Assembly: GCA_026874595.1 (NCBI GenBank)
Contig: CM049309.1
Location: 95,564,723-95,628,722, forward strand
Reading direction: 5' to 3'
Source: Sipunculus nudus
Lineage: Eukaryota > Annelida > Sipuncula > Golfingiida > Sipunculidae
DNA: 64,000 bases
Shown here in pieces: positions 1 through 58,528 of the stretch; within the stretch, counting starts at the first letter, position 1; each line of letters begins with the position of its first letter. The position numbers and the translations under genes are program-made. The notes beneath the pieces are model-generated. The model saw nothing but the letters and a program-made list of their open reading frames with translations. It was not told the origin of the DNA and did no database searches.

Positions 1-3000
1 CAATATAGAACTACAAAGAACCTGACCCTGAATCCCAGTAGCTGAGGTCTGACAATATAGAACTACAAAGAACCTGACCCTGAATCTCAGTAGCGGAGGT
101 CTGACAATATAGAACTACAAAGAACCTGACTCTGAATCCCAGTAGCGGAGGTCTGACAATATAATCTACCCAGAACCTGACCCTGAATCCCAGTAGTGGA
201 GGTCTGACAATATAGAACTACAAAGAACCTGACCTTGAATACGAGTAGGGGAGGTCTGACAATATAATCTACCCAGAACCTGACCCTGAATCCCAGTAGC
301 GGAGGTCTGACAATAAAGAACTACAAAGAACCTGAACTACAAAGAACCTGACCTTGAATCCCGGTAGCGGAGGTCTGACAATATAGAACTACAAAGAACC
401 TGACCTTGAATCCCGGTAGCGGAGGTCTGACAATATAGAACTACAAAGATCCTGACCTTGAATCCCAGTAGCGGAGGTCTGACAATATAGAACTACAAAG
501 AACCTGACCTTGAATCCCAGTAGCAGAGGTCTGACAATATAGAACTACAAAGAACCTGACCTTGAATCCCAGTAGGGGAGGTCTGACAATATAGAACTAC
601 AAAGAACCTGACCCTGAATCCCAGTAGCGGAGGTCTGACAATATAGAACTACAAAGAACCTGACCTTGAATCCCAGTAGGGGAGGTCTGACAATATAGAA
701 CTACAAAGAACCTGACACTGAATCCCAGTAGCAGAGGTCTGACAATATAGAACTACCCAGAACCTGACCCTGAATCCCAGTAGCGGAGGTCTGACAATAA
801 AGAACTACAAAGAACCTGACCTTGAATCCCAGTAGCGGAGGTCTGACAATATAGAACTACAAAGAACCTGACCTTGAATCCCAGTAGGGGAGGTCTGACA
901 ATATAGAACTACAAAGAACCTGACCCTGAATCCAAGTAGCGGAGGTCTGACAATATAATCTACCCAGAACCTGACCCTGAATCCCAGTAGCGGAGGTCTG
1001 ACAATATAGAACTACAAAGAACCTGACCTTGAATACGAGTAGGGGAGGTCTGACAATATAATCTACCCAGAACCTGACCCTGAATCCCAGTAGCGGAGGT
1101 CTGACAATAAAGAACTACAAAGAACCTGAACTACAAAGAACCTGACCTTGAATCCCGGTAGCGGAGGTCTGACAATATAGAACTACAAAGAACCTGACCT
1201 TGAATCCCGGTAGCGGAGGTCTGACAATATAGAACTACAAAGATCCTGACCTTGAATCCCAGTAGCGGAGGTCTGACAATATAGAACTACAAAGAACCTG
1301 ACCTTGAATCCCAGTAGCAGAGGTCTGACAATATAGAACTACAAAGAACCTGACCTTGAATCCCAGTAGGGGAGGTCTGACAATATAGAACTACAAAGAA
1401 CCTGACCCTGAATCCCAGTAGCGGAGGTCTGACAATATAGAACTACAAAGAACCTGACCTTGAATCCCAGTAGGGGAGGTCTGACAATATAGAACTACAA
1501 AGAACCTGACACTGAATCCCAGTAGCAGAGGTCTGACAATATAGAACTACCCAGAACCTGACCCTGAATCCCAGTAGCGGAGGTCTGACAATAAAGAACT
1601 ACAAAGAACCTGACCTTGAATCCCAGTAGCGGAGGTCTGACAATATAGAACTACAAAGAACCTGACGTTGAATCCCAGTAGGGGAGGTCTGACAATATAG
1701 AACTACAAAGAACCTGACCCTGAATCCAAGTAGCGGAGGTCTGACAATATAGAACTACAAAGAACCTGACCCTGAATCCCAATAGCGGAGGTCTGACAAT
1801 ATAGAACTACAAAGAACCTGACCTTGAATCCCAGTAGGGGAGGTCTGACAATATAGAACTACAAAGAACCTGACACTGAATCCCAGTAGCAGAGGTCTGA
1901 CAATATAGAACTACCCAGAACCTGACCCTGAATCCCAGTAGCGGAGGTCTGACAATAAAGAACTACAAAGAACCTGACCTTGAATCCCAGTAGCGGAGGT
2001 CTGACAATATAGAACTACAAAGAACCTGACCTTGAATCCCAGTAGGGGAGGTCTGACAATATAGAACTACAAAGAACCTGACCCTGAATCCCAGTAGGGG
2101 AGGTCTGACAATATAGAACTACAAAGAACCTGACCCTGAATCCCAGTAGGGGAGGTCTGACAATATAGAACTACAAAGAACCTGACCCTGAATCCCAGTA
2201 GCGGAGGTCTGACAATATAGAACTACAAAGAACCTGACCCTGAATCCCAGTAGCGGAGGTCTGACAATATAGAACTACAAAGAACCTGACCTTGAATCCC
2301 AGTAGGGGAGGTCTGACAATATAGAACTACAAAGAACCTGACCCTGAATCCCAGTAGCGGAGGTCTGACAATATAGAACTACAAAGAACCTGACCTTGAA
2401 TCCCGGTAGCGGAGGTCTGACAATATAGAACTACAAAGATCCTGACCTTGAATCCCAGTAGCGGAGGTCTGACAATATAGAACTACCCAGAACCTGACCC
2501 TGAATCCCAGTTGGGGAGGTCTGACAATATAGAACTACAAAGAACCTGACCTTGAATCCTAGTAGGGGAGGTCTGACAATATAGAACTACAAAGAACCTG
2601 ACACTGAATCCCAGTAGCAGAGGTCTGACAATATAGAACTACCCAGAACCTGACCCTGAATCCCAGTAGCGGAGGTCTGACAATAAAGAACTACAAAGAA
2701 CCTGACCTTGAATCCCAGTAGCGGAGGTCTGACAATATAGAACTACAAAGAACCTGACCTTGAATCCCAGTAGGGGAGGTCTGACAATATAGAACTACAA
2801 AGAACCTGACCCTGAATCCCAGTAGCGGAGGTCTGACAATATAGAACTACAAAGAACCTGACACTGAATCCCAATAGCGGAGGTCTGACAATAAAGAACT
2901 ACAAAGAACCTGACTCTGAATCCCAGTAGGGGAGGTCTGACAATATAGAACTACAAAGAACCTGACCTTGAATCCCAGTAGCAGAGGTCTGACAATATAG

Positions 3001-3434
3001 AACTACAAAGAACCTGACCCTTATTCCCAGTAGCGGAGGTCTGACAATATAGAACTACAAAGAACCTGACTCTGAATCCCAGTAGCGGAGGTCTGACAAT
3101 ATAGAACTACAAAGAACCTGACCTTGAATCCCAGTAGCAGAGGTCTGACAATATAGAACTACAAAGAACCTGACCCTTATTCCCAGTAGCGGAGGTCTGA
3201 CAATATAGAACTACAAAGAACCTGACCCTGAATCCCAATAGCGGAGGTCTGACAATATAGAACTACAAAGAACCTGACCATGAATCCCAGTAGGAGAGGT
3301 CTGACAATATAGAACTACAAAGAACCTGACCCTGAATCCCAGTAGCGGAGGTCTGACAATAAATAACTACCCAGAACCTGACCTTGCATCCAAGTAGTGG
3401 AGGTCTGACAATATAGGACAAGAAAGAACCTGAC
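1..3434 (-). repeat. 52-bp minisatellite containing the end of the adjacent exon plus its splice donor
   Basis: About 66 tandem units of 52 bp run from the window edge to the donor of the exon at 3435. On the minus strand each unit is a 22-nt copy of the exon end (cct ccg cta ctg gga ttc), the donor GTCAGG, and a spacer ending in tattgtcag. The 30-nt spacer therefore begins with GT and ends with AG. Variants include ttcaag versus ttcagg at the exon edge, aactacaaag versus aactaccca in the spacer, and an extra partial duplication near 320-350 and 1110-1140. A block of about 794 bp is repeated: gaatacgagtagggg occurs near 237 and again near 1031. The array continues past the window edge. Confidence 0.95.
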
Positions 3435-3565
3435 CTTGAATCCCAGTAGCGGAGGTCTTGAGCAGCTTGTAACAAACTTCAGCAGTTGACGTTTCTGTCG
3501 ATCAGAGAACTGAACCAGCACTCTCCAGAAAGACTGTATGACTGGGTGGTCTGACGCATAACCGC
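3435..3565 (-). CDS. UBE3C: UBE3C exon: start of HECT C-lobe (RPPLLGFK)
   Basis: This 131-nt exon has acceptor ttgcag and a weak donor, AAG|gtcagg. Two bases complete Gly, and 43 codons follow: [25 protein letters not shown] and [17 protein letters not shown]. This is the beginning of the C-lobe and matches UBE3C closely. The next family segment (ELYPAF...) and the catalytic cysteine should be on an exon left of base 1. If the intron were retained, 39 more residues would be read before a stop at 3315-3317, with loss of the catalytic cysteine. The last 22 nt of this exon and its donor are repeated dozens of times in the adjoining 52-bp array. Confidence 0.95.
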
Positions 3566-6500
3566 CTGCAAAATTTAAAAGTGGCTATAAATTCACTATT
3601 CTTTAGTTTACAAGAAATATCAAGGTGGCAAGGTATATAACTGGTTTGTTAAACAACCCTGACCCATGGGTCTAAATGCTCAGCTGACTAGTGTTGGGAC
3701 GATACAGGTTTTTGATATCATGATAATTATTCAAATTTTATCGCGATATACCGTGATATCGCGATATATTTAATTATATATAATGGCAATAATAAGCCAT
3801 CAATAATGATATTTATAACAACCACCTTTAAAGTCTTGACTTTATACAAGGGGTTAAGTATTAATATCATTTATACCTATTGTGCCAGTACCACAGAATG
3901 ACTCATTAAGTGATGTAAGTTGCATGAAGGTCCTGCAGGTGTGCAAGCTTGAGGCGCGGGAAGTCCTGCCCCCATCGTCGAATCACGCTTGTCAGAACTT
4001 TCCATCAGTTTCCTATAGCTACATTAGAGCCGGAGAATCCCGGCGAATTTTCGGAGAGCGTGTCATACCAATCATGGCTAAATATACCTTCCTAATTTTT
4101 TATGGCAAAATATGCAACCCGTATGGAATGTTCGATTCAGTTGTGACACTTTTATGTTGACATTTTCGTTCCATGTAATAAAAGCATAAATATGTGTATT
4201 TATTGCTCTTCAATTATAATGTTATTTTCTCCTGTAATTCTCAAGCTTTTGTCCTCTCTGATTCATCCTGCTACTTCCGGACATTTCCGACTAATCCCGA
4301 AGTCTGTAAGCACACTTTTCCACCTACACGCGGACATTTCCGACTAATCCCGAAGTCTGTAAGTACACGGTTCCACCCACGCGCGTGTATTCAGATACAT
4401 GTGATTCTTTGAAATAAATTTATTTTGAACCTAAAGGGCTTGCTTGTGAACCAAAATCGTGAACAAAAAATGATATCGTGGTATCGCGATAATAGGAAAG
4501 TTGACGGTATGATAACCGTAGCTGTCAGATATCATGATAATACCGTATACCGGTAACCGTCCCAACCCTACAGCTGACTAGCATGACATTCTAGATTAAG
4601 TGCAATTCAGATCTTTGAAAAACAGTGTAATGTTGTTCAGTCGTATGATGATCAGTGGAAAAAAGATCTGACAGAGGTCTTTAATCTGATATAAAGGACC
4701 TGGCTATGGATGAGAAAGCAGATATAAAGGACCTGACTATGGATGATTAAGCTTATATAAAGGATCTGACTGTAGATATTGTCAGACCTCTGCTACTGGG
4801 ATTCAGTGTCAGGTTCTGGGTAGTTCTATGTTGTCAGGCCTCCTCTACTGGGATTCAGGGTCAGGTTCTTTGCAGTAAAGCTTTATCTGGCTATGGTTTA
4901 TATCAGCTTTATCATCTATAGCCAGGTCCTTTAAATCAGCTTTATCATCTATAGTCAGGTCCTATAAGTTAGCTTTGTTATCTATAGTCAGGTCCTATAA
5001 ATTAGCTTTATCATCTACAATCAAGTCCTCCATATTAGCTTTATCATCCATAGTCAGGTCCATTATATCAGCTTTATCATCTATAGCCAGTTCCTTTATA
5101 TCAGCTTTATCATCCATAGCCAGGTCCTTTAAATCAGCTTTTTCATTTATAGTCAGGTCATTCTTATCAGCTTTATCAGTTATAGTCAGGCCTTTTATAT
5201 CAGCTTCATCATCTACATTGAAGTCCTCCATATAAGCTTTATCATCCACAGTCAGGTCCTTTATATAAGCTTTATCATCCACAGTCAGGTCCTTTATATT
5301 AGCTTTATCATTTATAGTCAGGTCCTTTATATCAGCTTTATCATCTATAGCCAGGTCCTTTATATCAGCTTTATCACCTATGGCCAGGTTCTTTAAATTA
5401 GTTTTATCATCCATAGCCAGGTCCTTTATATCAGCTTCATCATCTATGGGCAAGTCCTCCATATTAGTTTTATCATCCATAGTCAGGTCCTTTATATCAG
5501 CTTCATCATCTATAGTAAGGTCCTTTATATCAGCTTCATCAACTATAGTAAGGTCCTTTATATCAGCTTCATCATCTATGGGCAAGTCCTCCATATTAGT
5601 TTTATCATCCATAGCCAGGTCCTTTATTTCAGCTTCATCATCTAAAAACAGGTCCTTTAAATTAGCTTTATCATCTATAGTAAGGTCCTTTATATCAGCT
5701 TCATCATCTATGGGCAAGTCCTCCATATTAGTTTTATCATCTATAGTAAGGTCCTTTATTTCAGCTTCATCATCTACATTGAAGTCCTCCATATAAGCTT
5801 TATCATCCACAGTCAGGTCCTTTATATAAGCTTTATCATCCACAGTCAGGTCCTTTATATTAGCTTTATCATTTATAGTCAGGTCCTTTATATCAGCTTT
5901 ATCATCTATAGCCAGGTCCTTTATATCAGCTTTATCACCTATGGCCAGGTTCTTTAAATTAGTTTTATCATCCATAGCCAGGTCCTTTATATCAGCTTCA
6001 TCATCTATGGGCAAGTCCTCCATATTAGTTTTATCATCCATAGTCAGGTCCTTTATATCAGCTTCATCATCTATAGTAAGGTCCTTTATATCAGCTTCAT
6101 CAACTATAGTAAGGTCCTTTATATCAGCTTCATCATCTATGGGCAAGTCCTCCATATTAGTTTTATCATCCATAGCCAGGTCCTTTATTTCAGCTTCATC
6201 ATCTAAAAACAGGTCCTTTAAATTAGCTTTATCATCTATAGTAAGGTCCTTTATATCAGCTTCATCATCTATGGGCAAGTCCTCCATATTAGTTTTATCA
6301 TCTATAGTAAGGTCCTTTATTTCAGCTTCATCATCTATGGGCAAGTCCTCCATATTAGTTTTATCATCCATAGCCAGGTCCTTTATTTCAGCTTCATCAT
6401 CTAAAAACAGGTCCTTTAAATTAGCTTTATCATCTACAATCAAGTCCTCCATATTAGCTTTATCATCCATAGTCAGGTCCTTTATATCAGCTTTATCATC

Positions 6501-9500
6501 CATAGCCAGTTCCTTTATATCAGCTTTATCATCCATAGCCAGGTCCTTTAAATCAGCTTTCTCATTTATAGTCAGGTCATTCTTATCAGCTTTATCAGTT
6601 ACAGTCAGGCCTTTTATATCAGCTTCATCATCTACATTCAAGTCCTCCATATAACCTTTATCATCCGCAGTCAGGTCTTTTATATAACTTTTATCATCCG
6701 CAGTCAGGTCCTTTATATTAGCTTTATCATTTATAGTCAGGTCCTTTATATCAGCTTTATCATCTATAGCCAGGTCCTTTATATCAGCTTTATCACCTAT
6801 GACCAGGTTCTTTAAATTAGTTTCATCCATAGCCAGGTCCTTTATATCAGCTTCATCATCTATGGGCAAGTCCTCCATATTAGTTTTATCATCCATAGCC
6901 AGGTCCTTTATATCAGCTTCATCATCTATAGTAAGGTCCTTTATATCAGCTTCATCAACTATAGTAAGGTCCTTTATATCAGCTTCATCATCTATAGTAA
7001 GGTCCTTTATATCAGCTTCATCATCTATAGTAAGGTCCTTTATATCAGCTTCATCATCTATGGGCAAGTCCTCCATATTAGTTTTATCATCCATAGCCAG
7101 GTCCTTTATTTCAGCTTCATCATCTAAAAACAGGTCCTTTAAATTAGCTTTATCATCTATAGTAAGGTCCTTTATATCAGCTTCATCATCTATGGGCAAG
7201 TCCTTCATATTAGTTTATCATCTATAGTAAGGTCCTTTATTTCAGCTTCATCATCTATGGGCAAGTCCTCCATATTAGTTTTATCATCTATAGTAAGGTC
7301 CTTTATTTCAGCTTCATCATCTATGGGCAAGTCCTCCATATTAGTTTTATCATCCATAGCCAGGTCCTTTATATCAGCTTCATCATCTAAAGTCAGGTCC
7401 TTTAAATTAGCTTCATCATCTATAGTAAGGTCCTTTATATCAGCTTCATCATCTATGGGCGAGTCCTCCATATTAGTTTTATCATCCATAGCCAGGTCCT
7501 TTATTTCAGCTTCATCATCTAAAAACAGGTCCTTTAAATTAGCTTTATCATCTATAGTAAGGTCCTTTATATCAGCTTCATCATCTATGTGCAAGTCCTC
7601 CATATTAGTTTTATCATCTATAGTTAGGTCCTTTATTTCAGCTTCATCATCTAAAAACAGGTCCTTTATATCAGCTTCATCATCTATAGTCAGGTCCTTT
7701 ATATCAGCTTTATCATCCATAGCCAGGTCCTTTATATCAGCTTCATCATCTATAGTAAGGTCCTTTATATCAGCTTCATCATCTATAGTAAGGTCCTTTA
7801 TATCAGCTTCATCATCTATAGTAAGGTCCTTTATATCAGCTTCATCATCTATAGTAAGGTCCTTTATGTCAGCTTCATCATCTATGGGCAAGTCCTCCAT
7901 ATTAGTTTTATCATCCATAGCCAGGTCCTTTATATCAGCTTCATCATCTATAGTAAGGTCTTTTATATCAGCTTCATCATCTATAGTAAGGTCCTTTATA
8001 TCAGCTTCATCATCTATAGTAAGGTCCTTTATGTCAGCTTCATCATCTATAGTAAGGTCCTTTATATCAGCTTCATCATCTATGGGCAAGTCCTCCATAT
8101 TAGTTTTATCATCCATAGCCAGGTCCTTTATATCAGCTTCATCATCTAAAAACAGGTCCTTTAAATTAGCTTTATCATCTATAGTAAGGTCCTTTATATC
8201 AGCTTCATCATCTATGGGCAAGTCCTCCATATTAGTTTTATCATCCATAGCCAGGTCCTTTATATCAGCTTCATCATCTATGGGCAAGTCCTCCATATTA
8301 GTTTTATCATCCATAGCCAGGTCCTTTATATCAGCTTCATCATCTAAAAACAGGTCCTTTAAATTAGCTTTATCATCTATAGTAAGGTCCTTTATATCAG
8401 CTTCATCATCTATGGGCAAGTCCTCCATATTAGTTTTATCATCCATAGCCAGGTCCTTTATTTCAGCTTCATCATCTAAAAACAGGTCCTTTAAATTAGC
8501 TTTATCATCTATAGTAAGGTCATTTATATCAGCTTCTTCATCTATGGGCAAGTCCTCCATATTAGTTTTATCATCCATAGCCAGGTCCTTTATATCAGCT
8601 TCATCATCTATGGGCAAGTCCTCCATATTAGTTTTATCATCCTTAGCCAGGTCCTTTATATCAGCTTCATCATCTAAAAACAGATCCTTTAAATTAGCTT
8701 CATCATCTATAGTAAGGTCCTTTATATCAGCTTCATCATCTATGGGCAAGTCCTCCATATTAGTTTTATCATCCATAGCCAGGTCCTTTATTTCAGCTTC
8801 ATCATCTAAAAACAGGTCCTTTAAATTAGCTTTATCATCTATAGTAAGGTCCTTTATATCAGCTTCATCATCTATGGGCAAGTCCTCCATATTAGTTTTA
8901 TCATCCATAGCCAGGTCCTTTATATCAGCTTCATCATCTATAGTCAGGTCCTTTAAATTAGCTTTATCATCTAAAGTCAGCTCCTTTATATCAGCTTCAT
9001 CATCTAAAGTCAGGTCCTTTAAATTAGCTTTATCATCTAAAGTCAGGTCCTTTATATCAGCTTCATCATCTATGGGCAAGTCCTCCATATTAGTTTTATC
9101 ATCCATAGCCAGGTCCTTTATATAAGCTTCATCATCTAAAGTCAGGTCCTTTAAATTAGCTTTATCATCTAAAGTCAGGTCCTTTATATCAGCTTCATCA
9201 TCTATGGGCAAGTCCTCCATATTAGTTTTATCATCCATAGCCAGGTCCTTTATATTAGCTTTATCATTTATAGTCAGGTCCTTTATATCAGCTTCATCAT
9301 CTATAGTCAGGTCCTTTATATTAGCTTTATCATCCATAGCAAGGTCCAAGAATTTTGCATGCTAACAGGACTATAGTGAACCAGGGGTGCATTTATTCAA
9401 TGTTAAGGTTCAACTGTGAATTTGGGTTCACCAACCTTGAACACTCAGAGGGGCATGGGTGATCAAAAAGAAGACTCAAAATCATGTATTCACTGTGTAG

Positions 9501-30500: not shown

Positions 30501-33500
30501 TATGTTGTTGTTAAGTTATTGCATGCGAAAGAAAATCAGCTGTGGTGGCCATATTGGAATTCCAACAAGTCTGTAATTTGATAGGTCTGGAGCCCTCATA
30601 GGCACCAGTTATCCCTGTGAATTTGGGAAAGCTGCATTATATGTTGTTGTTGAGTTATCCCATGCAAAAGAAAATCAGCAATTAGGCTGTGGCAGCCATA
30701 TTCTAAATCTGACAAGTCTGTAATTCGATAGGTCTGGAGCCCTCATAAGTACCAGTCATCCCTGTGAATTTTGGAAAGCTCAGTTTGTTGTTGTTGAGTT
30801 ATCGTACTAAAAGAGAAAATCAGCGATTTGGCTGTGGCAGCCATATATGAAATGCGACAAGTCTGTTATTCGATAGGTCTGGAACCCACATAGGTACCAA
30901 TCATCCCTGTGAATTTTGGAAAGCTGCAGTATGTTGTTGTTGAGTTATTGCGTGCAAAAGAAAATCAGCGATTGGGCTTTGGCGGCCATATTGGAATTCT
31001 GACAAGTTTGTAATTGGAAAGGTCTTGAGCCCTCATAGGTACCAATCATCCCTGTGACTTTGGGAAACCTGCAGTGTGTTCTTGTTGAGTTATTGCGCGC
31101 GAAAGAAAGTGTCACTGAAGGAAGGACTGAAGGAAGGATGGACTGAAGGACGGACTGACATGGTGATCACTATAGGGCACTGCTTGTCAAGTGGGGCCCT
31201 AATTATTGTTTCATAAAATAACAGCAAAACTGTACCTATGTAGGTGTTTGGCTGGTGCTTAAGTCCTGTCATAATATTTCTTGCTATCAGCCATGAGGCA
31301 CAGTTGCACCTGTCTGAACATTAACAAGCTGTGTATAAGACATGGGGTTTAAGTAATGCGAGAAGTAAGAACATTTATTTCTCGAAAAAAGTATTGGATA
31401 TTACTGATTATTTTAACCTCCTCGCTAATTGCAGAAAGATTAATAATGCATTTCATTCAGAAGCCTGCAACAGATTTTTGTACCGGCAAAGTCAAAAGGC
31501 GGGAAAATGTTGGTGCCCTTGGTGTTGTTTACTCATTCTATTGAAGTAGACCGTAGCTATTTTCTTCTTAATCATTCAGGCCAATTTCTTGGCCAATTCT
31601 CCATTTTCGATATTTTGAAGACTTAAATTATTTTAACTCCTCATTTTTGCGATTTCCTGATTAGACCAGCAGACCGTGAGTTCAAGAAAACTTAAATGAA
31701 AGCTACCTTTTTTTTTCACAAATTCCTTTCAAATTTAAAATTTTATTAAATTAAAACCTCATCTGTCTATCATGTAAAAAGCAAATGTACATACAGGGAA
31801 CAAATGTGACATAATCAAACTTGAGCAAACTTTAAGGTAAAGATTTTACATTTATGCTTATAACTGAATAAAAATTAAAACTAAGTTGAATATAAATATA
31901 TGTTTGAAATAAGCTCTCTAGCTATACAATTTATCATATTAAGTGAGTAAACATATTTACTGATTTTTTGAAAAAGTGCAGTACGTTTTGGCCCATAATT
32001 TCAAATACTTATGCAATATTGACCTAAGTTCTGGCATGTACATAGGAAATATATGCAGAATGGTTATATCAAATATGAATAGATTAACAACAGCAGTTTT
32101 CATAGAAAGCAGTTTTGAATTGTAACAATATTTTTTACTGGAAAATCAGGGTTTTCCTTGTTCCCTCAAAGGAACAAAGTCACAGTGACCTAGTTTTGGG
32201 TTAGTGATGTCTAACTGTTGAATTTTTTTTATTTGTATGTCCAATGCTTCAAAATGTGCCTCGTTAAAGGTTAGACTACTGGATGGACGGTGGGATGACA
32301 GACAAAGGACCATCACTAGAGCTCAGATGACTTATAGTCAGCTGAGCTAAAAATTTCAAATGAAATATGTTTTTACATGTCACTAAAAGATTATGGCACT
32401 ATCTATTCCATTTAAACTTTCATCTTATGGATGACTTTCTGTTTCCTTTTAACCCTTCATTTAACCGATGACTTACTGGTTTCTTGAACACTTTTGATTT
32501 CCCTTTAAACTTTCCTTTTAATGGAAGCTTACTGCCTTCATGAATCTTAGTTGTATCCATCAGCAAGGTCAAAAAAGCATTAACTTTTTAAGTAATCTGT
32601 ATTTACACAGGCACTCAGTCCAGCCAGTCAGCCATACATACTTTTTAAGTAATCTGTACCTACACAGGTACTCAGTCCAGCCAGTCAGCCATACATACTT
32701 TTTAAGTAATCTGTATCTACACAGGCACTCAGTCCAGCCAGTCAGCCATACATACTTTTTAAGTAATCTGTATCTACACAGGCACTCAGTCCAGCCAGTC
32801 AGCCATACATACTTTTTAAGTATCTGTATCTACATAGGCACTCAGTCCAGCCAGTCAGCCATACATACTTTTTAAGTAATCTGTATCTACACAGGCACTC
32901 AGTCCAGCCAGTCAGCCATACATACTTTTTAAGTAATCTGTATCTACACAGGCACTCAGTCCAGCCAGTCAGCCATACATACTTTTTAAGTAATCTGTAT
33001 CTACACAGGCACTCAGTCCAGCCAGTCAGCCATACATACTTTTTAAGTAATCTGTATCTACACAGGCACTCAGTCCAGCCAGTCAGCCATACATACTTTT
33101 TAAGTAATCTGTATCTACACAGGCACTCAGTCCAGCCATACATACTTTTTAAGTAATCTGTATCTACACAGGCACTCAGTCCAGCCAGTCAGCCATACAT
33201 ACTTTTTAAGTAATCTGTATCTACACAGGCACTCAGTCCAGCCAGTCAGCCATACATACTTTTTAAGTAATCTGTATCTACACAGTCACTCAGTCCAGCC
33301 AGTCAGCCATACATACTTTTTAAGTAATCTGTATCTACACAGGCACTCAGTCCAGCCAGTCAGCCATACATACTTTTTAAGTAATCTGTATCTACACAGG
33401 CACTCAGTCCAGCCAGTCAGCCATACATACTTTTTAAGTAATCTGTATCTACACAGGCACTCAGTCCAGCCAGTCAGCCATACATACTTTTTAAGTAATC

Positions 33501-36500
33501 TGTATCTACACAGGCACTCAGTCCAGCCAGTCAGCCATACATACTTTTTAAGTAATCTGTATCTACACAGGCACTCAGTCCAGCCAGTCAGCCGTACATT
33601 CTTTTTAAGTAATCTGTATCTACACAGGCACTCAGTCCAGCCAGTCAGCCGTACATACTTTTTAAGTAATCTGTATCTACACAGGCACTCAGTCCAGCCA
33701 GTCAGCCGTACATACTTTTTAAGTAATCTGTATCAACACAGGCACTCAGTCCAGCCAGTCACCCATACATACTTTTTAAGTAATCTGTATCTACACAGGC
33801 ACTCAGTCCAGCCAGTCAGCCATACATACTTTTAAAGTAATCTGTATCTACACAGGCACTCAGTCCAGCCAGTCAGCCATACATACTTTTTAAGTAATCT
33901 GTATCTACACAGGCACTCAGTCCAGCCAGTCAGCCATACATACTTTTTAAGTAATCTGTAACTACACAGGCACTCAGTCCAGCCAGTCAGCCATACATAC
34001 TTTTTAAGTAATCTGTATCTACACAGGCACTCAGTCCAGCCAGTCACCCATACATACTTTTTAAGTAATCTGTATCTACACAGGCACTCAGTCCAGCCAG
34101 TCAGCCATACATACTTTTTAAGTAATCTGTATCTACACAGGCACTCAGTCCAGCCAGTCAGCCATACATACTTTTTAAGTAATCTGTATCTACACAGGCA
34201 CTCAGTCCAGCCAGTCAGCCATACATACTTTTTAAGTAATCTGTATCTACACAAGTACTCAGTCCAGCCAGTCAGCCATACATACTTTTTAAGTAATCTG
34301 TATCTACACAGGCACTCAGTCCAGCCAGTCAGACATACATACTTTTTAATTAATCTGTATCAACACAGGTACTCAGTCCAGCCAGTCAGCCATACATACT
34401 TACCGTGACCTCACCCAGCCTATCATTGGTAATCGTAAAGTCAAGACCAAGGTCAGACACATCACCATCATAATGCTTCAGGAACAACAAATTTCTACAA
34501 TCACAAACACAGAAGAACCAGTAACCCCAGTTAACAAGAAAACACACATACATTTATACTGTTTATACTGAAGAAGGGAAAAGATGGTTTTTGACCACCC
34601 TGTTGAGGGTGTCACATTTCCAGTTTCCTAACTTAGTCATGACTTTTAAAGCGAGAACAAATCCTGTTCAGGGGCAGGCCATGGAGGAGTGCTAGCTTAG
34701 GGCAAAAATAACACTTCAGCACTTTTGTCTCAAAGTTAGGTCCAAAAAATTAGAATGACAAGCTGAGATGGGGTACTTGCCTATAGTAGAAAAGGGCCAT
34801 AGATTAAATCTGCAGCCTCAAACATCCTGATAAATGCTAATACTGTAACAAAGAAGGAACACAAGATGATGGTTATTAAGCTTGAAACTTAGCATGAATT
34901 GCCTCTGTTATTTAGATTGTAACTTAGCATGAATTGAATCTGTTATTTAGCTTGTAACTTAGCATGAATTACCACCATTATTTAGATTGTAACTTAGCAT
35001 GAATTGCCAGTTTGTCTTTTACTTACTTGTACATTTCAGGGTCCAAGGAAGCCAAGTGATGGATATCAACTTCACCGCCATGACGACCGAGAATCTTGGA
35101 CAGGAAGAAGCTGGCAAATGGTAGCTCCACCAGCATGTTTTCATACAGTGCCTGTAAATAAAAATGCTCAGTCACTAAAAACAACTAATCTGAGGAAGAA
35201 CTGATTGGAAAAAATAAAGACCCTAAATTAGGGCCATGCTTGGTGAAGATCCTTGATCTGCTTGGTGAGGATCCTTGATCTGCTTGGTGAGGATCCTTGA
35301 TCTGCTTGGTGAGGATCCTTGATCTGCTTGGTGAGGATCCTTGATCTGCTTGGTGAGGATCCTTGATCTGCTTGGTGAGGATCCTTGATCTAATGCACTG
35401 GAAAGTAATGACAAGATGATTGCCTGGAGGACATCTACTATTTTTTAAGTCTGAAATTAGACAGAACACATCTTGTGAAAGGTACCATTCTTAAGTAAAG
35501 ATTCACTGCAGCTGCTCACAAGTTTCTTCAGATACTGGGCAGGAAAGAGTGTAACAAATGGATTGATTATCACATGACCAATAGAAACATGCTTACAAAT
35601 GCTCTTTTTGTTTTGAGTTTCTTCAGACACAGGACCCTTGCTGAGTGTGGATTGTCCTTTGGCTGACCTGAACTGTGAACCTGATGACCACAAACAGTAT
35701 TATCCTATCCTAACAATTCATACTGTTAGTGCCTACCTTTCCTAGAAGTCTTCCTATGAAGTAGTAATGGTTGGTCATGTTGTCCACCACTGCCTGGGCC
35801 TGGGGGTTTGGATACAACAACTGGTCACTGGTGAACCTGAAGAACCCTCGGTTTGGATCAAATGCAGTTTTAAGGACTTCTGATAAAAATTCCCGGAACA
35901 GCCCTCCTCCATCAATGCCTGCCTCGTTCAGACCCGCAAAGTTTGTCAGCTGAACTTGCATCCGAAGTTTCATGTTTGGTTCTGAATAAATAAAAAACCT
36001 GACTAGAGTTTATAAAGATTAACTTCCCTAAAACATAAAGGCTGTCTTCACTTAAAGTAACCATCATAACATTTCCTTCTGCTCAACCTTCAGGCAATAT
36101 GTTAATCATCAGCACCATGCCTAAATATTTGAATAGTATTTGGTAAATAGGCATTTTCATTAACAAAGGATATTGATAATCAATATTTATAAATTCATGT
36201 CTACTATCATAATCACTCTGTTTAGGGATTGAAGGTAGAGAAACCATTTCGAAACAATGCCATGGAGCTTCTAAATTTACTTATAGTCAAAAGTATTCAT
36301 GAATTTAATATGTAGGATCAGAATGGTTCAAGGCAAATTACAGGCACATGAACATTTTATGTTGAGGACATCAAGTCAGTTATATTTGGTAAGCTTGAAC
36401 ATGTGCAATTTGAATTTTCTTTTGTTGTGACAAATTTTAATTTTAAGTGTGATGGTTGAGTACAGTTGTCCAAGCTTTCCAACAATCCCTTACTGTCAGA

Positions 36501-39330
36501 GGTTTGAGTGATGTCATCCTAATGTTCTTTTGATCAAATAATATTATTGCACTTGACAAACAAGGCCTACAGGCCTAATGCGAACCTGTGCATATTGATA
36601 TACACCAGGTATAACACTTCAATGCTGAACCACTACTTTTCATATATATGAACAATGCAAGTACTAAACATTTTGAACAAGAAACAATACACAAACATCA
36701 CTGCTGAAATTCTGGCATGGGTGCACACATCACAAAAATTATTGTAGGTGGCACCACCAGTCTTGTATACGACGAAGCTATTTGACATGTATAAATATGC
36801 CCAATTTCAGGCTGATATATCAAATTCTTCCGTAGAATTAAGCAGGCACATACACTTTGCAAAAGTCATTGTAGATGGCAACACCATTCTTGTGAATGAG
36901 AAAGCCATTAGAGACACATAGACAGGTCAGAATATCAGCCCAATACATCAAACTTACCTTGAGTCTGATGCACGGGGCTGACCGGGCTTAGGTGAGAAAG
37001 GCTGTTGCCCCAAGTGTACTGTGACAAATTACTGGCTCAGGCTACTGCACTGAGTGAACTCTTGACCTGCACCTGGCTAGACTGAGTGAACTTTTGACCT
37101 GTACCTGGCTGCACTGAATGAACATGAGGTGATCACATGAAACTCATGAGGTGATCACATGCTACCCATGAAATGATCACATGCTGCCCATGAGGTGATC
37201 ACATGCCTTGTGCTTGGCTGCACTGATTGAACTCTTGACCTAAATCTGGCTGCACTGAATGAACTCTTGATCTGTTGCCAAATCTGAAACAGTTGGCAGT
37301 TTCTCAACCTATTTAAGAAACATACACAATCTTGGCCTGTTATGTAACTCTGCTAAAATTTATCCAACACAAACCATTTGAACAAACTTGAGAAGGCTCG
37401 CCTCTGGGATCATTTCTGTAAAATATTGAACAATTTGGCTGGACTCTTTACAAGAAGAAGAAGTTTTTTCAGCTTTTCCCCTGAAAAATCTAAGTAAATG
37501 CAGATAGCAAAAATAAGCTGAATCCATCAACATTTGATATGTGACTGATAATTGCATAAAATTTGGAGATGGTAGCTCCTGCTATTCCTGAGAAATTATA
37601 ATTATTGTATAGATATGTAATCATAAATCTACAATTTTTAAAAGCTTTTAAAAAACATTGTCAATATTTTCCATAGATATTCTGAAATCTAAATGTCTAG
37701 AGGCATGATGTAATGGATGCTGATAAAATGGTGCTAGGCTAGATGTATCTGCTTCACACAGCTAACATATATGGTAAAGCGACTCAATTCAATCTTTATA
37801 ATTCAGCCAAAATTCAATTTTTGGAACCATAAAAGACAATTATTATTAGAATGATTCAGGGAATTATTCTTGCAAAATATTAAACAAACTGGCCTCAGTA
37901 TCATCAGTCGAAAAACGTTTTGTAGGTTTATAACTCATATGGGAAAATAAAGCAAAATGGCAAAGTTCAGCTTCCCATAACTCAGCCAAAAATCATTGAA
38001 CTAAAACCATTTGAACAAACTTGAATTATCAACTTCTAAGGATAATCAATGTGTGAGATTTAAGAATTTGGCCCAGTGGTTTTTGAGAAGAAGATTTTTG
38101 TAGCCACTCAGCTAACATGGGCTGTTATGGCATATGACTAAATTCAGCTTCCCATAACTTAGCCAAAAGTCACTGAACTGAGACCATTTGAACAAACTTG
38201 AATTATCAACATCTAAGGATAATTAATGTGTGAGATTTAAGAATTTGGACCAGTGGTTTTTGAGAAGAAGATTTTTGTAGCCACTAAGCTTACATGGGCT
38301 GTTATGGCATATGACTAAATTCAGCTTCCCATAACTCAGCCAAAAGTCACTGAACTGAGACCATTTGAACAAACTTGAATTATCAACATCTAAGGATAAT
38401 CAATGTGTGAGATTTTAGAATTTGGCCCAGTGGTTTTTGAGAAGAAGATTTTTGTAGCCACTTAGCTAAAATGGGCTGTTATGGCATATGACTAAATTCA
38501 GCTTCCCATAACTTAGCCAAAAGTCACTGAACTGAGACCATTTGAACAAACTTCAGAAAGCACTACCCTAGGATCATTTCTGTGCGATATTAAACAATTT
38601 GGCCATATTGTTTCAGAGAAGAAGTTATTTGTAGCTGTCAGTATGATACAGGCACTGATGACCCCCGTACAAAAAAGGCCGATGCAGGTGGCGCTACCAA
38701 TACCTCAATTTCAGATATGACTCATGTGACCAATATTGGCATAAAATTTTGTGATGATAGCTCAAGCCATTTCTGAAATTGTAATTTTAGTATGTTTTTT
38801 TGGACAGATGACTAAGTTCAACATCCTGTAACTCGGCCAAAAATCACCGAACTTAAACCATTCAAACAAACTTGAGAGAGATTGTTCCAAGAATCATTTC
38901 TGTAAAATATTGGACAATTTGGCTGAACAGATTCGGAGAAGAAGATTATTTAAGCTTTTTTAGCTTTTTCCCTATTAAATCTAAGAAAATGCAGTTAGCC
39001 AAAAAATAAGCAAAATCCGATAGAGTTTTTTAGATGACTAATTTTATGCATAAGATTTCAAGATGCTAATTCTTGCCGTTTTCAAGATAGTATGGGTTAA
39101 CGTACAGACGACGGACGCTGGACGACGCCACACCATCGCATAAGCTCACAGGTTCGCTAAAAATAGATATGTGTATCTGAAAACTTACCATTTTCAGGAG
39201 AGAGTTTATCAAAAGCATCCTCATACAGGTAGTTTCTCCTGACTGATATCTGTATCATCTGACCACGGCCAAAGTGATGCAGCTCACCCTGGTTTTCCTT
39301 CTTGTCTTGTTCCACCAGCTTCTGGAAAAT
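3435..39330 (-). CDS. UBE3C: UBE3C-type HECT E3 ubiquitin ligase, spliced, partial at both ends
   Basis: Seven minus-strand exons (listed separately) splice in continuous phase to about 330 codons with no stop. The product covers most of a HECT domain: the N-lobe from an IFQKL start through AGIDGGG and [12 protein letters not shown], then the first part of the C-lobe with RPPLLGF. HECT ligases accept ubiquitin from an E2 onto a cysteine and pass it to a substrate. UBE3C is a proteasome-associated member (established knowledge). Residue choices follow UBE3C rather than UBE3B, for example [12 protein letters not shown] and LEWLRMFD. The catalytic cysteine and C-terminal tail are not in the window and must lie left of base 1. 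The N-terminal part (human UBE3C is about 1080 residues) lies to the right and was not found up to 64000. Introns range from about 0.5 to 14.9 kb and are filled with repeats. Open exons and intact splice sites indicate a functional gene, not a pseudogene. Confidence 0.93.
3566..3688. other. short unique intron segment with a family B-like remnant
   Basis: This intron sequence lies just upstream of the exon at 3435-3565. From about 3655 it reads gacccatgggtc...gctcagctgac, resembling the left end of the family B elements. This remnant is interrupted by the hAT-type insertion. Confidence 0.4.
3689..4570. mobile_element. hAT-type non-autonomous element, 882 bp
   Basis: The ends are TAGTGTTGGGACG on the left and CGTCCCAACCCTA on the right, which are inverted repeats with one mismatch in 13. 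They are flanked by the 8-bp direct repeat CAGCTGAC (3681-3688 and 4571-4578). An 8-bp target duplication and short TAG-starting inverted ends are typical of hAT transposons. Both subterminal regions are rich in ATCGCGATAT-like palindromes. No transposase is visible, so this looks like a MITE or internally deleted copy. Two copies of gacatttccgactaatcccgaa lie at about 4279-4350. Confidence 0.8.
4686..4874 (+). repeat. inverted junction joining 33-bp and 52-bp array units
   Basis: Positions 4686-4776 hold about 2.7 units of the 33-bp repeat in the opposite orientation to the main block, reading [16 protein letters not shown] on the plus strand, then a stop. Positions 4777-4874 hold two units of the 52-bp repeat (cctctgctactgggattcag), also inverted relative to array 1-3434. 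The main 33-bp array in minus orientation starts right after. Two otherwise separate arrays are therefore physically fused and flipped here. Confidence 0.85.
4875..9347 (-). repeat. 33-bp minisatellite, about 135 units, open in several frames
   Basis: Tandem 33-bp units (sense ggtcctttatatcagcttca...) encode an 11-residue repeat on the minus strand, of the type [11 protein letters not shown], with K/E, A/T and L/P variants. The minus-strand frame is open from 9349 to 7205 and from 7208 to 4995. The two parts are separated by a single-T deletion in a TTTT run near 7213. Long plus-strand frames of [11 protein letters not shown] type are open as well, as expected when a unit divisible by 3 lacks stops. 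Multi-unit blocks are repeated, for example a 561-bp offset between 5221 and 5782. The array lies wholly inside the intron between the exons at 18420 and 3435. I see no start, splice or promoter evidence for a separate gene. Confidence 0.93.
9348..11106. other. intronic DNA with two repeat-element ends, otherwise unrecognised
   Basis: About 9405-9685 resembles the right end of a dispersed element: it runs through a tgacagactgacagatggac stretch to ...gacttacagtcagctgattt. A family B left end (aacaagggacccatgggtca) starts at 9686. The remainder to 11106 is AT-rich, with a small aaaaacgg direct repeat near 9841-9885. No coding region was supported. Confidence 0.45.
11107..11132 (-). mobile_element. 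Helitron-like 3' terminus
   Basis: On the minus strand this reads CCGTGC-GTA-GCACGG (a 6-bp stem with a 3-nt loop), then GTAATTG, then CTAG followed by T. A GC-rich hairpin a few bases before CTRR and insertion before T is the standard 3' end of a Helitron. The element would extend to higher coordinates. Its TC-starting 5' end and any Rep/helicase coding were not identified. Confidence 0.45.
11610..12110 (+). mobile_element. family B element left end and body
   Basis: This begins aacaagggacccttgggtca and continues gcgctcagctgttatatatgat, shared with the copy at 59165. The right end is unclear. The DNA turns AT-rich and meets the truncated family A copy near 12115. Confidence 0.5.
12115..15585 (+). 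mobile_element. family A element, copy 1, 5'-truncated
   Basis: Starts at gggaaatacaccaggtataatgc, lacking the first bases found in other copies, and ends at gctcacaggttcgctaaa. It has an internal copy of the same terminus at about 14150-14212 (...agctcacaggttcgcaaaa), so the element is composite. The interior consists of diverged repeats around 'cagccaaaa.tca..gaac....accatttgaacaaactt'. No coding frame was recognised. Confidence 0.75.
15586..16147. other. AT-rich intron, no recognised feature
   Basis: The sequence has long A and T runs. The weak open frame at 15723-15908 is low-complexity and not supported as a gene. Confidence 0.5.
16148..17562 (+). mobile_element. family C dimeric element, copy I
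   Basis: Two related monomers are joined by a linker near 16745-16860 (gagctgaagctggggagctg). Each monomer carries 'cattatgtttgggcccataact', 'agtggttttgatattaggcagtc' and 'aaggaa..aagtcct'. The right end has a cggacagacggacggacgg-type simple stretch, then gactta..gtcagctgagctaa. The same dimer recurs at about 29049-30065 and 50560-51988. Confidence 0.7.
17563..18360 (+). mobile_element. chimeric repeat: family C body joined to family F tail
   Basis: The left part (to about 18105) is a family C monomer. From the 'ttaagaatttgtgtaattttcccc' region on, it matches family F ('attcaaggtcaaggtcactctcc', 'aaatattttttgagttat', then a TATCCCC...GGGGATA hairpin at 18322-18346). It ends about 60 bp from the donor of the exon at 18420. 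Confidence 0.6.
18420..18576 (-). CDS. UBE3C: UBE3C exon: LEWLRMFD segment, end of HECT N-lobe
   Basis: This 157-nt exon has acceptor tacag and donor TCAG|gtaaat. It encodes 52 codons plus one base: [36 protein letters not shown] and [10 protein letters not shown], ending in the middle of the YSGGY motif. In HECT domains this motif lies at the hinge between the N- and C-lobes. The leftover G joins GC of the next exon to give Gly. The intron upstream of this exon holds a 95-bp tandem array in which the first half of this exon, with its acceptor region, is repeated about 14 times in damaged form. Confidence 0.95.
18577..19965 (-). repeat. 95-bp minisatellite made from the adjacent exon's 5' half and acceptor region
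   Basis: About 14 units of 95 bp (first unit near 18611, cagcc starts spaced exactly 95) lie upstream of the acceptor at 18577. On the minus strand each unit holds cactgtcaggctttctgaca...ggctg.gtatgtttgat, a copy of about the first 73 nt of the exon, plus about 20 nt of intron (gtactgtttgtattttacat). The copies share differences from the real exon: acceptor AG changed to AT or TT, codon AGA changed to TGA (stop), and gaatgg changed to gagagg. Confidence 0.93.
20015..20640 (-). pseudogene. decayed LINE (non-LTR retrotransposon) AP-endonuclease fragment
   Basis: Minus-strand translations in shifting frames give the usual order of an APE-type endonuclease: [11 protein letters not shown], then [40 protein letters not shown] and, after a frameshift and stop, [14 protein letters not shown] and SDH are the catalytic motifs of the exonuclease-endonuclease-phosphatase fold. 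In-frame stops and frameshifts show it is dead. No reverse transcriptase was recognised nearby. The orientation is the same as the host gene. Confidence 0.8.
20838..21146 (+). mobile_element. family C fragment
   Basis: Contains catgtacataggaactatat, agtggttttgatat and the cggacggacagatggacgga stretch. It ends abruptly at ctcagatg, without the usual agctgagctaa terminus. Confidence 0.65.
21147..23418. other. intron between two UBE3C exons, no recognised element
   Basis: I see no tandem array, clear dispersed family or coding exon in this stretch. It is mildly AT-rich. This is the longest stretch of the gene region without a recognised repeat. Confidence 0.5.
23419..23517 (-). CDS. UBE3C: UBE3C exon: [14 protein letters not shown] segment
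   Basis: This 99-nt, phase 0-0 exon of 33 codons has acceptor gtatag and donor CAG|gtaaac. It encodes [18 protein letters not shown] and then [13 protein letters not shown], matching UBE3C 'ELK.GGKDI.V...N...YIHL.A...LNRQ'. It lies between two introns of about 10.9 kb (upstream) and 4.8 kb (downstream). It is the only exon here with a large intron on each side and no tandem array within 500 bp of either edge. Confidence 0.94.
23872..25862 (+). mobile_element. family A element, copy 2 (short form)
   Basis: Starts aacaaggcatacaggcctaa then tgcgaacctgtgc, and ends ctcacaggttcgct. The inverted terminal motif is GCGAACCTGTG / CACAGGTTCGC. It is about 2 kb and lacks the CCCATGAGGTGATCACATG sub-repeat present in the longer copies. 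Confidence 0.75.
25997..29048 (+). mobile_element. family B composite element with internal tandem blocks
   Basis: Left end aacaagtgacccatgggtca, right end gactttcagtcagctgagctaa after an acggacagacagacggacg stretch. Inside, about 26330-27640 repeats a roughly 270-bp block (aggtggcgccacct, ataaaatcaagaaagct, gagatatgag). About 27660-28950 repeats a roughly 340-bp block (gccaccagtctgcag, gggtaacagagacctaattt) four times. No coding frame was recognised. Confidence 0.6.
29049..30065 (+). mobile_element. family C dimeric element, copy II, 5'-truncated
   Basis: Picks up the family C sequence at acaattacgcaatactgat, runs through the gagctgaagctggggagctg linker and ends agtcagctgagctaa at 30065. 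Confidence 0.7.
30066..30360 (+). repeat. extra 340-bp-type block outside the composite element
   Basis: Repeats the motif order of 27660-28950 (aggtggcaccaccagt, gggtgacagagacctaat, gttaacagatgaccacatc). It is a diverged copy lying beyond the family C element. Confidence 0.6.
30361..31200 (+). repeat. tandem repeat, about 145-bp unit, 5 copies
   Basis: Units are marked by gcgaaagaaaatcagc, tgtggcggccatattggaat, gatctgg-like taggtctggagccctcat and atccctgtgaatttggg. Spacing is about 139-148 bp between 30371 and 31092. It ends in a gaaggaaggactgaaggaag simple stretch. Confidence 0.75.
31700..32350 (+). mobile_element. family C monomer, diverged
   Basis: Weakly conserved family C body (acatacagggaacaaatgtg, ggcatgtacataggaaatat, ctcaaaggaacaaagtc) with a clear right end: gacttatagtcagctgagct at 32330-32350. 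Confidence 0.65.
32575..34397 (-). repeat. 57-bp minisatellite starting at a UBE3C donor
   Basis: About 32 units of 57 bp. On the minus strand a unit reads aagtatgtatggctgactgg, then ctggactgagtgcctgtgta, then gatacagattacttaaa. The array starts directly at the donor of the exon at 34404, whose intron begins gtaagtatgtatggctgact. Array copies keep donor bases +3 to +9 (AAGTATG) but have AA instead of GT. Because 57 is divisible by 3 and the unit lacks stops, a 19-residue repeat (of [19 protein letters not shown] type) stays open, with no sign that it is coding. Confidence 0.95.
34404..34494 (-). CDS. UBE3C: UBE3C exon: NLLFLK segment of HECT N-lobe
   Basis: This 91-nt exon has acceptor attgtag and a consensus donor, ACG|gtaagt. 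The first base completes Lys, and 30 codons follow: [17 protein letters not shown], then [16 protein letters not shown]3C has NLLFLK.Y..DV.ELGLNFT at this place. A 57-bp tandem array starts in the intron directly at this donor, so the first intronic bases are also array sequence. Confidence 0.94.
34872..35010. repeat. 35-bp tandem repeat, 4 copies, next to a donor
   Basis: Units of aacttagcatgaattgcc plus ctgttatttagattgt, exactly 35 bp apart at 34886, 34921, 34956 and 34991. On the gene strand the array starts about 16 bp after the donor of the exon at 35027. Confidence 0.9.
35027..35151 (-). CDS. UBE3C: UBE3C exon: [12 protein letters not shown] segment of HECT N-lobe
   Basis: This 125-nt exon has acceptor tttacag and a strong donor, CAA|gtaagt. 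It is in phase 0 and encodes 41 codons plus two bases. It begins [17 protein letters not shown] and includes [14 protein letters not shown], which is nearly identical to vertebrate UBE3C and clearly different from UBE3B at the same place. In E6AP the region that follows forms the smaller N-lobe subdomain that contacts the E2; extending that role to this protein is by homology. A 35-bp tandem repeat starts about 16 bp beyond the donor, and a 22-bp tandem repeat lies about 85 bp upstream of the acceptor. Confidence 0.95.
35236..35395. repeat. 22-bp tandem repeat, about 7 copies
   Basis: Unit cttggtgaggatccttgatc plus tg, nearly perfect. It lies in the short intron between the exons at 35737 and 35027, about 85 bp upstream of the acceptor. 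The uniform units suggest recent expansion. Confidence 0.95.
35737..35981 (-). CDS. UBE3C: UBE3C exon: HECT N-lobe core (AGIDGGG)
   Basis: This 245-nt exon has acceptor attcag and a non-consensus donor, AAG|gtaggc. The first two bases complete Glu, and 81 codons follow. It carries the HECT hallmark [18 protein letters not shown], then LLYPNPQAQ and [11 protein letters not shown]. These match the conserved N-lobe of UBE3C (AGIDGGG.FREFL, LYPNP.AQ, HYYF.GR.LGK). An in-frame ATG at 35971-35973 is internal, not a translation start, because the reading frame continues through the acceptor into the previous exon. No tandem array touches this exon. Confidence 0.95.
35982..36558. other. intron, no recognised element
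   Basis: AT-rich sequence between the exon acceptor at 35982 and the family A insertion. Nothing recognised. Confidence 0.5.
36559..39158 (+). mobile_element. family A element, copy 3
   Basis: Starts aacaaggcctacaggcctaa and ends taagctcacaggttcgct. It contains a local tandem triplication of a 177-bp block (aattatcaac at about 38024, 38201 and 38378) that other copies carry once. Its right end lies 30 bp from the donor edge of the exon at 39189. Confidence 0.8.
39189..39330 (-). CDS. UBE3C: UBE3C exon: start of HECT N-lobe
   Basis: This 142-nt exon has acceptor ttgcag and donor ATG|gtaagt. It enters in phase 0 and leaves one base over. It encodes 47 codons beginning [15 protein letters not shown] and ending [17 protein letters not shown]. 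The second stretch is the conserved 'RRNY.YEDA.DKLSPEN' segment of UBE3C, which opens the HECT N-lobe. The leftover G pairs with AA of the next exon to give Glu, rebuilding the family sequence SPENEP. A 56-bp tandem array starts within about 30 bp upstream of the acceptor, and a family A element ends 30 bp downstream of the exon. The preceding exon was not found. Confidence 0.93.
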
Positions 39331-39490
39331 CTGCAAGATAAAATCATAGTAAAAAAATCATGAGGAATACAGCCAGAAAACATCTATGGTAAACTCTGAG
39401 AGATCTGATACAATAATGAACCATAAAGCCACAAAATATCTATGGTAAAATCTGTAAGATGTGATACAATAATGAAGAATACAGCCATAA
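39331..39490. repeat. 56-bp minisatellite, segment 1, next to a UBE3C acceptor
   Basis: Units of the type atctatggtaaactctg, aga.ctgatacaataatgaa and ccataaagccacaaaat. On the gene strand units contain cttacagagtttacca, which resembles the real acceptor and exon start, cttgcagattttcca. It is interrupted at 39491 by a family B element and resumes at 51989 and 58021. Confidence 0.8.
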
Positions 39491-40020
39491 AACAAGGGAC
39501 CCATGGGTCACGGCACTCAGCTGATCGTGCTTGGACTATAAATGTTTCTCCACTGTGATACTATATCGAGTCGATAAAGCTTATGAATATCATGGACATG
39601 TTGGGCTATTATAAAGGAATGTAATTTAATATGTGAGTAAATGATCAATGAAATTACCTGACTGATGGATTAATAGAGTCAAATAAAGTGGTTTATTTTT
39701 TATTTATTTAGGAGGGGTTGAAAACTGTGATATATTTGAGCAAATATGAATGCAATGACAGCAGTAATAAGCAGTAGTAGAATGATGATAAGGCTATTTG
39801 TTGAAGGATCTAAAGTGTATGGTAGTCTGCAAGCTTTCAATTTGACAGATATGATGTTATGATTAACTATGCTGATGAAGTGATTTATGAATTTGTGACT
39901 GTATGACACAATATCTCTTTAGTCTTGACAAGGTACATTATTGTGATGCCCACTATGTCTACATATTACACAATATTGACAATTTCTGGCATGTACATAG
40001 GTACCTATGGACGAATAGTT
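39491..40020 (+). mobile_element. family B element, copy close to that at 46425
   Basis: Starts aacaagggacccatgggtca, then gctgatcgtgcttggactat. It shares with 46425-46960 a series of motifs: gataaagctta, tcatgg.catgttgggct, ctgactgatggattaa and gcatgtacataggtacctat. The right end was not determined; similar sequence fades near 40020. Confidence 0.6.
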
Positions 40021-58020: not shown

Positions 58021-58528
58021 AAAATACAGCCACAAAACATCTATGTTAAACTCTGTAAGATGTAATAAAATCATGAGGAATACAGCAAGAAACCATCTAT
58101 GGTAAACTCTGTAAGATCTGATACAATAATGAACCATAAAGCCACAAAATATCTATGGTAAAATCTGTAAGATGTGAAACAATAATGAAGAATACAGCCA
58201 CAAAAAAAAACATGGTAAAATCTGTAAATGTAGTGTAATAAAATAATGAAGAATACAGCCACAAAAAATCTATGTTAATCTCTGTAAGATGTAATAGAAT
58301 AATGAAGAATACAGCCACAAAACATCTATTTTAACTCTGTAAGATGTAACAAAATAATGATCAAAACAGCAACAAAATATCTATGGTAAGCTCTGTAAGA
58401 CGTTATAAAATAATGAACAATACAGCCACAAAACATCTATGGTAAACTCTGTCAGATGTAATAAAATAATAAAGAATACAGCTACAAAACATATATGGTA
58501 AACTATGTAAGATGTAATAAAATAACTA
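58021..58528. repeat. 56-bp minisatellite, segment 3
   Basis: About 9 units of atctatggtaaactctgtaa, gatgtaataaaataatgaa and gaatacagccacaaaac. Together with 39331-39490 and 51989-52085 it forms one original array broken by later insertions. Confidence 0.9.

Follow-up and report, generated by a model that had tools for sequence, protein, structure and literature searches.

Boundary-spanning tandem arrays in UBE3C and other genes of Sipunculus nudus, a largely known kind of repeat in another animal group

Repeats that span exon-intron boundaries have been described in lancelets under the name "mirages" (PMC3087553, PMC3902484). According to the accessible parts of these two papers, mirages are present in Adh3, TnC, the globin genes BflGb6 and BflGb9, and PGBD5, of which TnC and PGBD5 were added by PMC3902484. 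Haplotypes differ in the length of these repeats, and splicing was undisturbed by RT-PCR. The original mirage paper is Canestro et al. 2002 (doi 10.1093/nar/gkf386), cited here through the accessible part of PMC3087553. The same text names the Rogers model, in which introns are gained via tandem duplication of sequence containing AG/GT; PMC4974935 appears to deal with the same kind of intron gain. A literature search over titles and the openings of abstracts, with few subscription journals covered, found among the papers listed neither a report of boundary-spanning arrays outside lancelets nor a count of how common junction arrays are in a genome. A sequence-only reading of the DNA treated here had regarded arrays at splice junctions as undescribed, a claim that the lancelet mirages already named in the accessible text of those two papers contradict.

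The window, i.e., the whole 64,000-bp stretch of DNA that was analyzed, is C4:95564723-95628722 of the Sipunculus nudus assembly (1.43 Gb, 153 contigs) and contains no N bases. Of 24 innexin matches in this genome, 15 have E below 1e-75, which points to a protostome and not a lancelet; no haemocyanin beta-sandwich was hit. Exon limits were set from splice sites and the reading frame, and arrays were called by TRF. Seven minus-strand exons joined in frame encode 330 residues, for which the match to UBE3C (6k2c, 487 bits) is full-length and the next-best relative is HUWE1, with 165 bits. The predicted exons represent the HECT end of UBE3C, on the minus strand. The last coding exon starts at C4:95534351 and runs downwards, its acceptor being ...ttacag followed by GACTTGTATCC, and thus the intron after exon A is approximately 33.8 kb long. 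The exons and repeats are as follows.

1-3434, minus strand: 52-bp array, intron part (TRF and unit columns), extending to the left of the window
3435-3565, minus strand: UBE3C exon A, ending in 24 bp that form the exon-side copy of the 52-bp unit
4784-4887, plus strand: two inverted 52-bp units, within the intron preceding exon A
18420-18576, minus strand: UBE3C exon B, whose first 75 bp recur in the 95-bp array
18577-19963, minus strand: 95-bp array, intron part, 14 copies, at the acceptor of exon B
23419-23517, minus strand: UBE3C exon C, with no array nearby
32583-34401, minus strand: 57-bp array at the donor side of exon D, 2 bp from the exon end
34404-34494, minus strand: UBE3C exon D
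34872-35008, minus strand: 35-bp array, 18 bp downstream of the donor of exon E
35027-35151, minus strand: UBE3C exon E
35237-35391, no strand: 22-bp array, 85 bp upstream of the acceptor of exon E
35737-35981, minus strand: UBE3C exon G, without an array within 40 bp
39189-39330, minus strand: UBE3C exon F
39366-39494, minus strand: 56-bp array, 2.3 copies, 35 bp upstream of the acceptor of exon F
58023-58525, minus strand: second array of the 56-bp unit, 8.9 copies, 19 kb upstream, with no adjoining exon recognized
12574-12778, 24368-24736, 37048-37206, 42040-42442, 52560-52962, and 60047-60385: dispersed element with an internal 32-bp repeat, at six sites of the window, five of which also contain a 22-bp repeat

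TRF confirms the earlier claim that five of the seven UBE3C exons have an array near an edge: the arrays overlap one edge or lie 2-35 bp away, and the positions first reported are right within a few bases. In two of these five edge arrays, the 52-bp and the 95-bp array, the junction itself is copied. Comparison of the units bears out that both contain copied exon sequence together with the splice junction.

The TRF span of the 52-bp array, 1-3458, takes in the 24 bp of exon A next to its donor. The unit is composed of 24 exon-derived bases, the donor GTCAGG, and 22 more intron bases. L004, an 8-kb stretch that overlaps the start of the window by 1 kb, is 52-bp array throughout. In the window and L004 together, the donor +1 G is seen in 195 of 197 units and the +2 T in all 197; 72 of the 197 contain the exact 9-mer of the true donor, and 74 are off by one exon base. 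The array was read unbroken over 10.4 kb. Of six probes farther left, four, reaching down to C4:95545500, are 52-bp array, and the two nearest to the last exon are not. If the array is continuous, this sampling gives approximately 22.7 kb within the 33.8-kb intron. There are 75 distinct variants among 199 units, and two runs of consecutive units, one of 14 and one of 12, are repeated without change 40 and 15 units away, respectively. These patterns support growth and homogenization through unequal exchange in which whole blocks of units are copied. Selection keeping the decoy splice sites was considered and rejected: the donor bases are near-invariant, yet many other columns are likewise. Reading exon A on into the array leads to a stop approximately 117 nt into the intron, and failure to use the first donor would therefore presumably be harmful.

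The inverted units at 4784-4887 show 5 and 10 mismatches to the consensus. Exon A is flanked by inverted copies, and pairing within the pre-mRNA is therefore possible and could lead to circularization or skipping of the exon. A search with the 52-bp unit returned only the inverted copy and missed even the array itself, as very common words are skipped, so it says nothing on whether the unit is private to this locus. Next to the inverted copies, a 4.45-kb array of a 66-bp (2 x 33) unit occupies 4897-9347, with inverted 33-bp units just before it at 4688-4771. This array is open over 739 and 718 codons in minus-strand frames, apparently through the composition of its unit.

The 95-bp array (TRF span 18502-19963) overlaps exon B by 75 bp at the acceptor, and its unit joins the last 20 intron bases to the first 75 exon bases. 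The acceptor AG is missing in all 14 copies, and the copies have in common changes that are absent from the exon, indicating that the array grew from one decayed duplicate. The 57-bp unit, which had been said to contain donor-flanking bases, indeed starts inside the donor of exon D, at approximately +3; GT is gone in the copies displayed. No exon sequence was seen in this unit, and it does not span the exon-intron boundary as a mirage does. An origin of the 95- and 57-bp arrays from a dispersed element is not supported, since both units matched only the UBE3C locus. The 35-bp array starts at intron position +19; its unit does not span the boundary either, and no exon sequence was seen in it by eye.

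The 56-bp unit, atcttacagATTTTACCATAG, resembles the junction of exon F, atcttgcagATTTTCCAGAAG. The acceptor-like stretch attributed to this unit is present; the unit may descend from the exon F junction, or the likeness may be that of the acceptor consensus alone. The unit matched two places, both inside the window (39366-39494 and 58023-58525). A common sequence (gcgaacctgtgagcttatgcgatggtgtggcg...) follows the 56-bp array at 58020-57920 and lies just past exon F at 39160-39060. Judging from this sequence common to 39 and 58 kb, the region around exon F may have been copied ectopically without the exon.

An array lies within 40 bp of 5 of the 14 UBE3C edges. When the seven exons were re-placed randomly in positions 1-39490, with exon bodies kept free of arrays, the mean of 20,000 placements was 0.71 edges (P = 0.0005). 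This P value overstates the case, because it is post hoc for a cluster chosen as striking and because dispersed repeats make up much of the intron. If arrays are restricted to non-dispersed sequence, P is approximately 0.002 by a rough binomial in which five of nine private arrays are at edges. The inputs of this binomial were set by hand: the nine arrays were judged private by eye, some of them having been flagged as dispersed via their own second or inverted copies, and the edge zone was estimated at 12%.

Are such arrays present in other genes? The controls were 235 exons of kinesin, myosin, and HECT genes, corresponding to 470 edges in 69 gene clusters, with approximately 500 bp fetched on each side. 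They comprise 126 kinesin-motor matches listed (122 of 225 candidates scored), 75 myosin-head matches listed (65 of 198 candidates scored), and 34 of the 64 HECT matches outside UBE3C. An array overlaps or lies within 40 bp of 22 of the 470 control edges; for UBE3C, the figure is 5 of 14, and a post hoc Fisher test of the difference gives P 0.0005. Six of the control arrays, each in a gene cluster of its own, contain at least four junction copies, counted as 30-mers across the junction with at most 8 mismatches and with the true junction included; five remain by a stricter 30-mer test. They are:

L088, kinesin acceptor: 16 junction copies
L124, myosin donor: 14 junction copies
L028, kinesin donor: 8 junction copies
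L070, kinesin acceptor: 6 junction copies
L106, myosin acceptor: 5 junction copies
L140, myosin donor: 4 junction copies

The repeat unit spans the exon-intron boundary in all six, as in mirages. The pattern is not that of a single gene, as had been proposed, since unrelated kinesin and myosin genes carry like arrays. A myosin gene on C9 (L129, L147, and L148; C9:48047479-48063382) has arrays 22-42 bp from four exon edges and is comparable with UBE3C; an array lies within 40 bp of three of its six sampled edges. The reported length of open frames was tried as a proxy for exon-adjacent arrays and discarded, as very long frames (e.g., at C2:44848559) occur without an array within 40 bp. In a muscle-type myosin gene of the same contig (L120-L122; C2:44848059-44854698), four neighboring exons match positions of approximately 109-153 of the motor-domain model, as in mutually exclusive exons. 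A muscle myosin exon is about as similar to the myosin of squid as to those of scallop and human.

Two tests of enrichment at exon edges were made on the control sample. Both rest on exon edges predicted with splice-site frequencies; for one of the nine straddling arrays (L131), which is without a predicted donor, the end of the HMM match was used as the edge. Array ends fall in [-50,+50) at 25 edges and in [50,300) at 24, against 9.6 expected in the former, a ratio of 2.6 (gene-bootstrap 95% interval 1.35-4.4). Other score cut-offs give ratios of 2.5-4.3, with lower bounds of 0.86-1.47. The excess is alike at donors and acceptors. Arrays that straddle an edge with at least 14 bp of exon are present at 9 of the 470 edges, versus 3.8-5 expected (P 0.02-0.07). 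In the window, the dispersed share of non-array bases is 0.09 at 0-50 bp and 0.23 at 100-300 bp from exons, and 0.53 at 300-1000 bp and 0.65 beyond 3 kb. After a rough correction for dispersed repeats, approximately 11 edges with an array in [-50,+50) are expected, and 25 are seen. The excess of array ends thus comes partly from the scarcity of dispersed repeats near exons, and about twofold remains.

The second test gives a different picture. At 5 of 310 edges (1.6%), the junction 30-mer recurs within 200 bp, whereas 124 of 2780 intron 30-mers 60-300 bp away are repeated (4.5%, with a range of 2.9-7.1% by position); inside exons, the figure is approximately 0.3%. Compared per position, the ratio of junction to intron is 0.52 (bootstrap 0.15-0.91). 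The 310 junctions stand against 193-233 sites per intron position because low-complexity 30-mers, more abundant in introns, were excluded. What this test captures is the extent of array cover, not the rate of array birth, and the intron value is increased by arrays that started elsewhere. The cover itself is nearly flat over 0-500 bp: 3.9% at 0-49 bp and 4.7-6.5% beyond. The two tests agree with each other if arrays tend to start near exons while the junction itself is not specially prone. Array ends gather near exons; junctions are not supported as preferred repeat material. Of the enrichment at exon edges that the sequence-only reading had put forward for checking, the gathering of array ends (25 versus 9.6) is found in the control sample, while the junction sequence is less repeated than the intron. 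A mechanism acting on splice junctions themselves, also suggested there, draws no support from the 1.6% at junctions versus 4.5% in introns, with the reservation that both are measures of cover.

The arrays are probably mirage-type minisatellites, made by random tandem duplication, tolerance of duplications that straddle a junction, and unequal exchange; as part of the same reading, UBE3C probably just happens to hold two junction arrays and three near-junction arrays in an array-rich genome. A short tandem duplication would arise at an essentially random place. A duplication straddling a junction would be tolerated, the copy beside the exon body supplying the exon end and the splice site and the extra copy becoming intron, and a duplication wholly inside an exon would be removed by selection. 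Unequal exchange would then enlarge and homogenize the array, several units being copied at a time, and the unit patterns seen in the 52-bp array support this step. The extra splice sites would die before or during expansion, as seen in the 95-bp array, or persist as decoys; this varies among the other arrays. The order of repetition, 0.3% in exons, 1.6% at junctions, and 4.5% in introns, fits removal in exons and tolerance of straddling duplications. Random duplication, tolerance, and unequal exchange together are the simplest account, although the twofold gathering of array ends near exons is not fully explained by this neutral reading. It might be explained if exon edges are preferred birthplaces of minisatellites, through breaks at junctions linked to transcription or R-loops or through replication slippage at the conserved junction sequence. 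The 2.6-fold enrichment of array ends, seen at both donors and acceptors, the straddling arrays (9 of 470), and the clusters in UBE3C (5 of 14 edges) and the C9 myosin gene (3 of 6 sampled) speak for this. We consider it rather unlikely: junctions are repeated less (5/310) than the intron 60-300 bp away (124/2780), array cover is near-flat (3.9-6.5%) over 0-500 bp, and the thinning of dispersed repeats close to exons (9% at 0-50 bp, 23% at 100-300 bp) inflates the contrast. Its widest form is doubtful to the same degree: throughout the genome, minisatellites would arise or survive preferentially at exon edges, and thousands of introns would contain junction-anchored or junction-made arrays, in some of which the spliceosome would have to pass over hundreds of intact decoy sites.

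That thinning is the basis of another reading, in which the anchoring at exons is mostly apparent: introns would be mainly young transposon DNA, and the old single-copy sequence available for private arrays would survive beside exons. The rise of the dispersed share from 0.09 at 0-50 bp to 0.65 beyond 3 kb agrees with this, as do 10 of the 21 merged arrays in positions 1-39490, which are at least 95% dispersed and none of which is at an exon edge (two further arrays that match nearby copies of themselves are not counted among the ten). For 0-50 versus 50-300 bp, however, the correction is only approximately 1.2-fold with detectable repeats, so that a roughly twofold excess stays, and transposons alone do not explain the exon sequence in the units. 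This reading is a real possibility, though we lean against it. Templating by RNA, with transcripts reverse-transcribed back into the gene, was another suggestion of the sequence-only reading. Nothing speaks for it beyond the exon sequence in the units, which, in exons A and B of UBE3C and in the six control arrays displayed, is joined to its own intron with no exon-exon join; spliced mRNA is therefore not the template. Unspliced pre-mRNA is a possible template, and RNA templating as a whole is extremely improbable. Long tandem arrays are error-prone in assembly, so that the arrays or their lengths could be artefacts. The divergence of the units (75 variants among 199), the similar shorter arrays in other genes, and the lack of N in the window make this very improbable. 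Splicing around the arrays of S. nudus is presumably normal, and the arrays are presumably unstable in length.

These observations suggest that mirage repeats are no oddity of lancelets and can reach numbers that allow a count within a single genome. An intron of 33.8 kb in which the upstream donor recurs in some hundreds of near-perfect copies provides a natural test of how the spliceosome holds to the first site. New exons, and alleles of differing length in conserved genes, could plausibly stem from junction arrays as well. Taken as a claim of mechanism, the finding is mostly met by ordinary tandem duplication.

The 52-bp array of exon A and the 95-bp array of exon B resemble lancelet mirages, as far as these are described in the accessible text, in that the unit spans the exon-intron boundary. 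As in lancelets, many units keep AG/GT in the 52-bp array, in contrast to the 95-bp array, where AG is kept in 0 of 14, and several unrelated genes of one genome are affected. The differences are the animal, S. nudus being no lancelet, and the size: 199 units of the 52-bp array were read and approximately 22.7 kb sampled, versus the 2-7 units given for lancelets in the same accessible text. The boundary units of mirages are excluded from homogenization; here, in one array, the 52-bp array, the first, second, and third exon-side units show 4, 8, and 0 mismatches to the consensus, the mean being 2.6. Intron gain under the Rogers model, as named in the accessible part of PMC3087553, likewise starts from a short tandem duplication with splice signals, but here an existing intron edge is duplicated without a new intron or exon. 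No new intron inside a former exon, as in the AGGT duplication model, was seen within the duplicated exon sequence, and the seven exons are collinear with human UBE3C. Unit lengths of 22-95 bp and the signs of block duplication within an array are shared with ordinary intronic minisatellites, from which the exon sequence in two of the five units differs. The junction arrays are real but of a largely known kind of repeat and not a proven new mechanism; the new elements are the group of animals, the length reached by the 52-bp array, and a small count of the frequency of such arrays.
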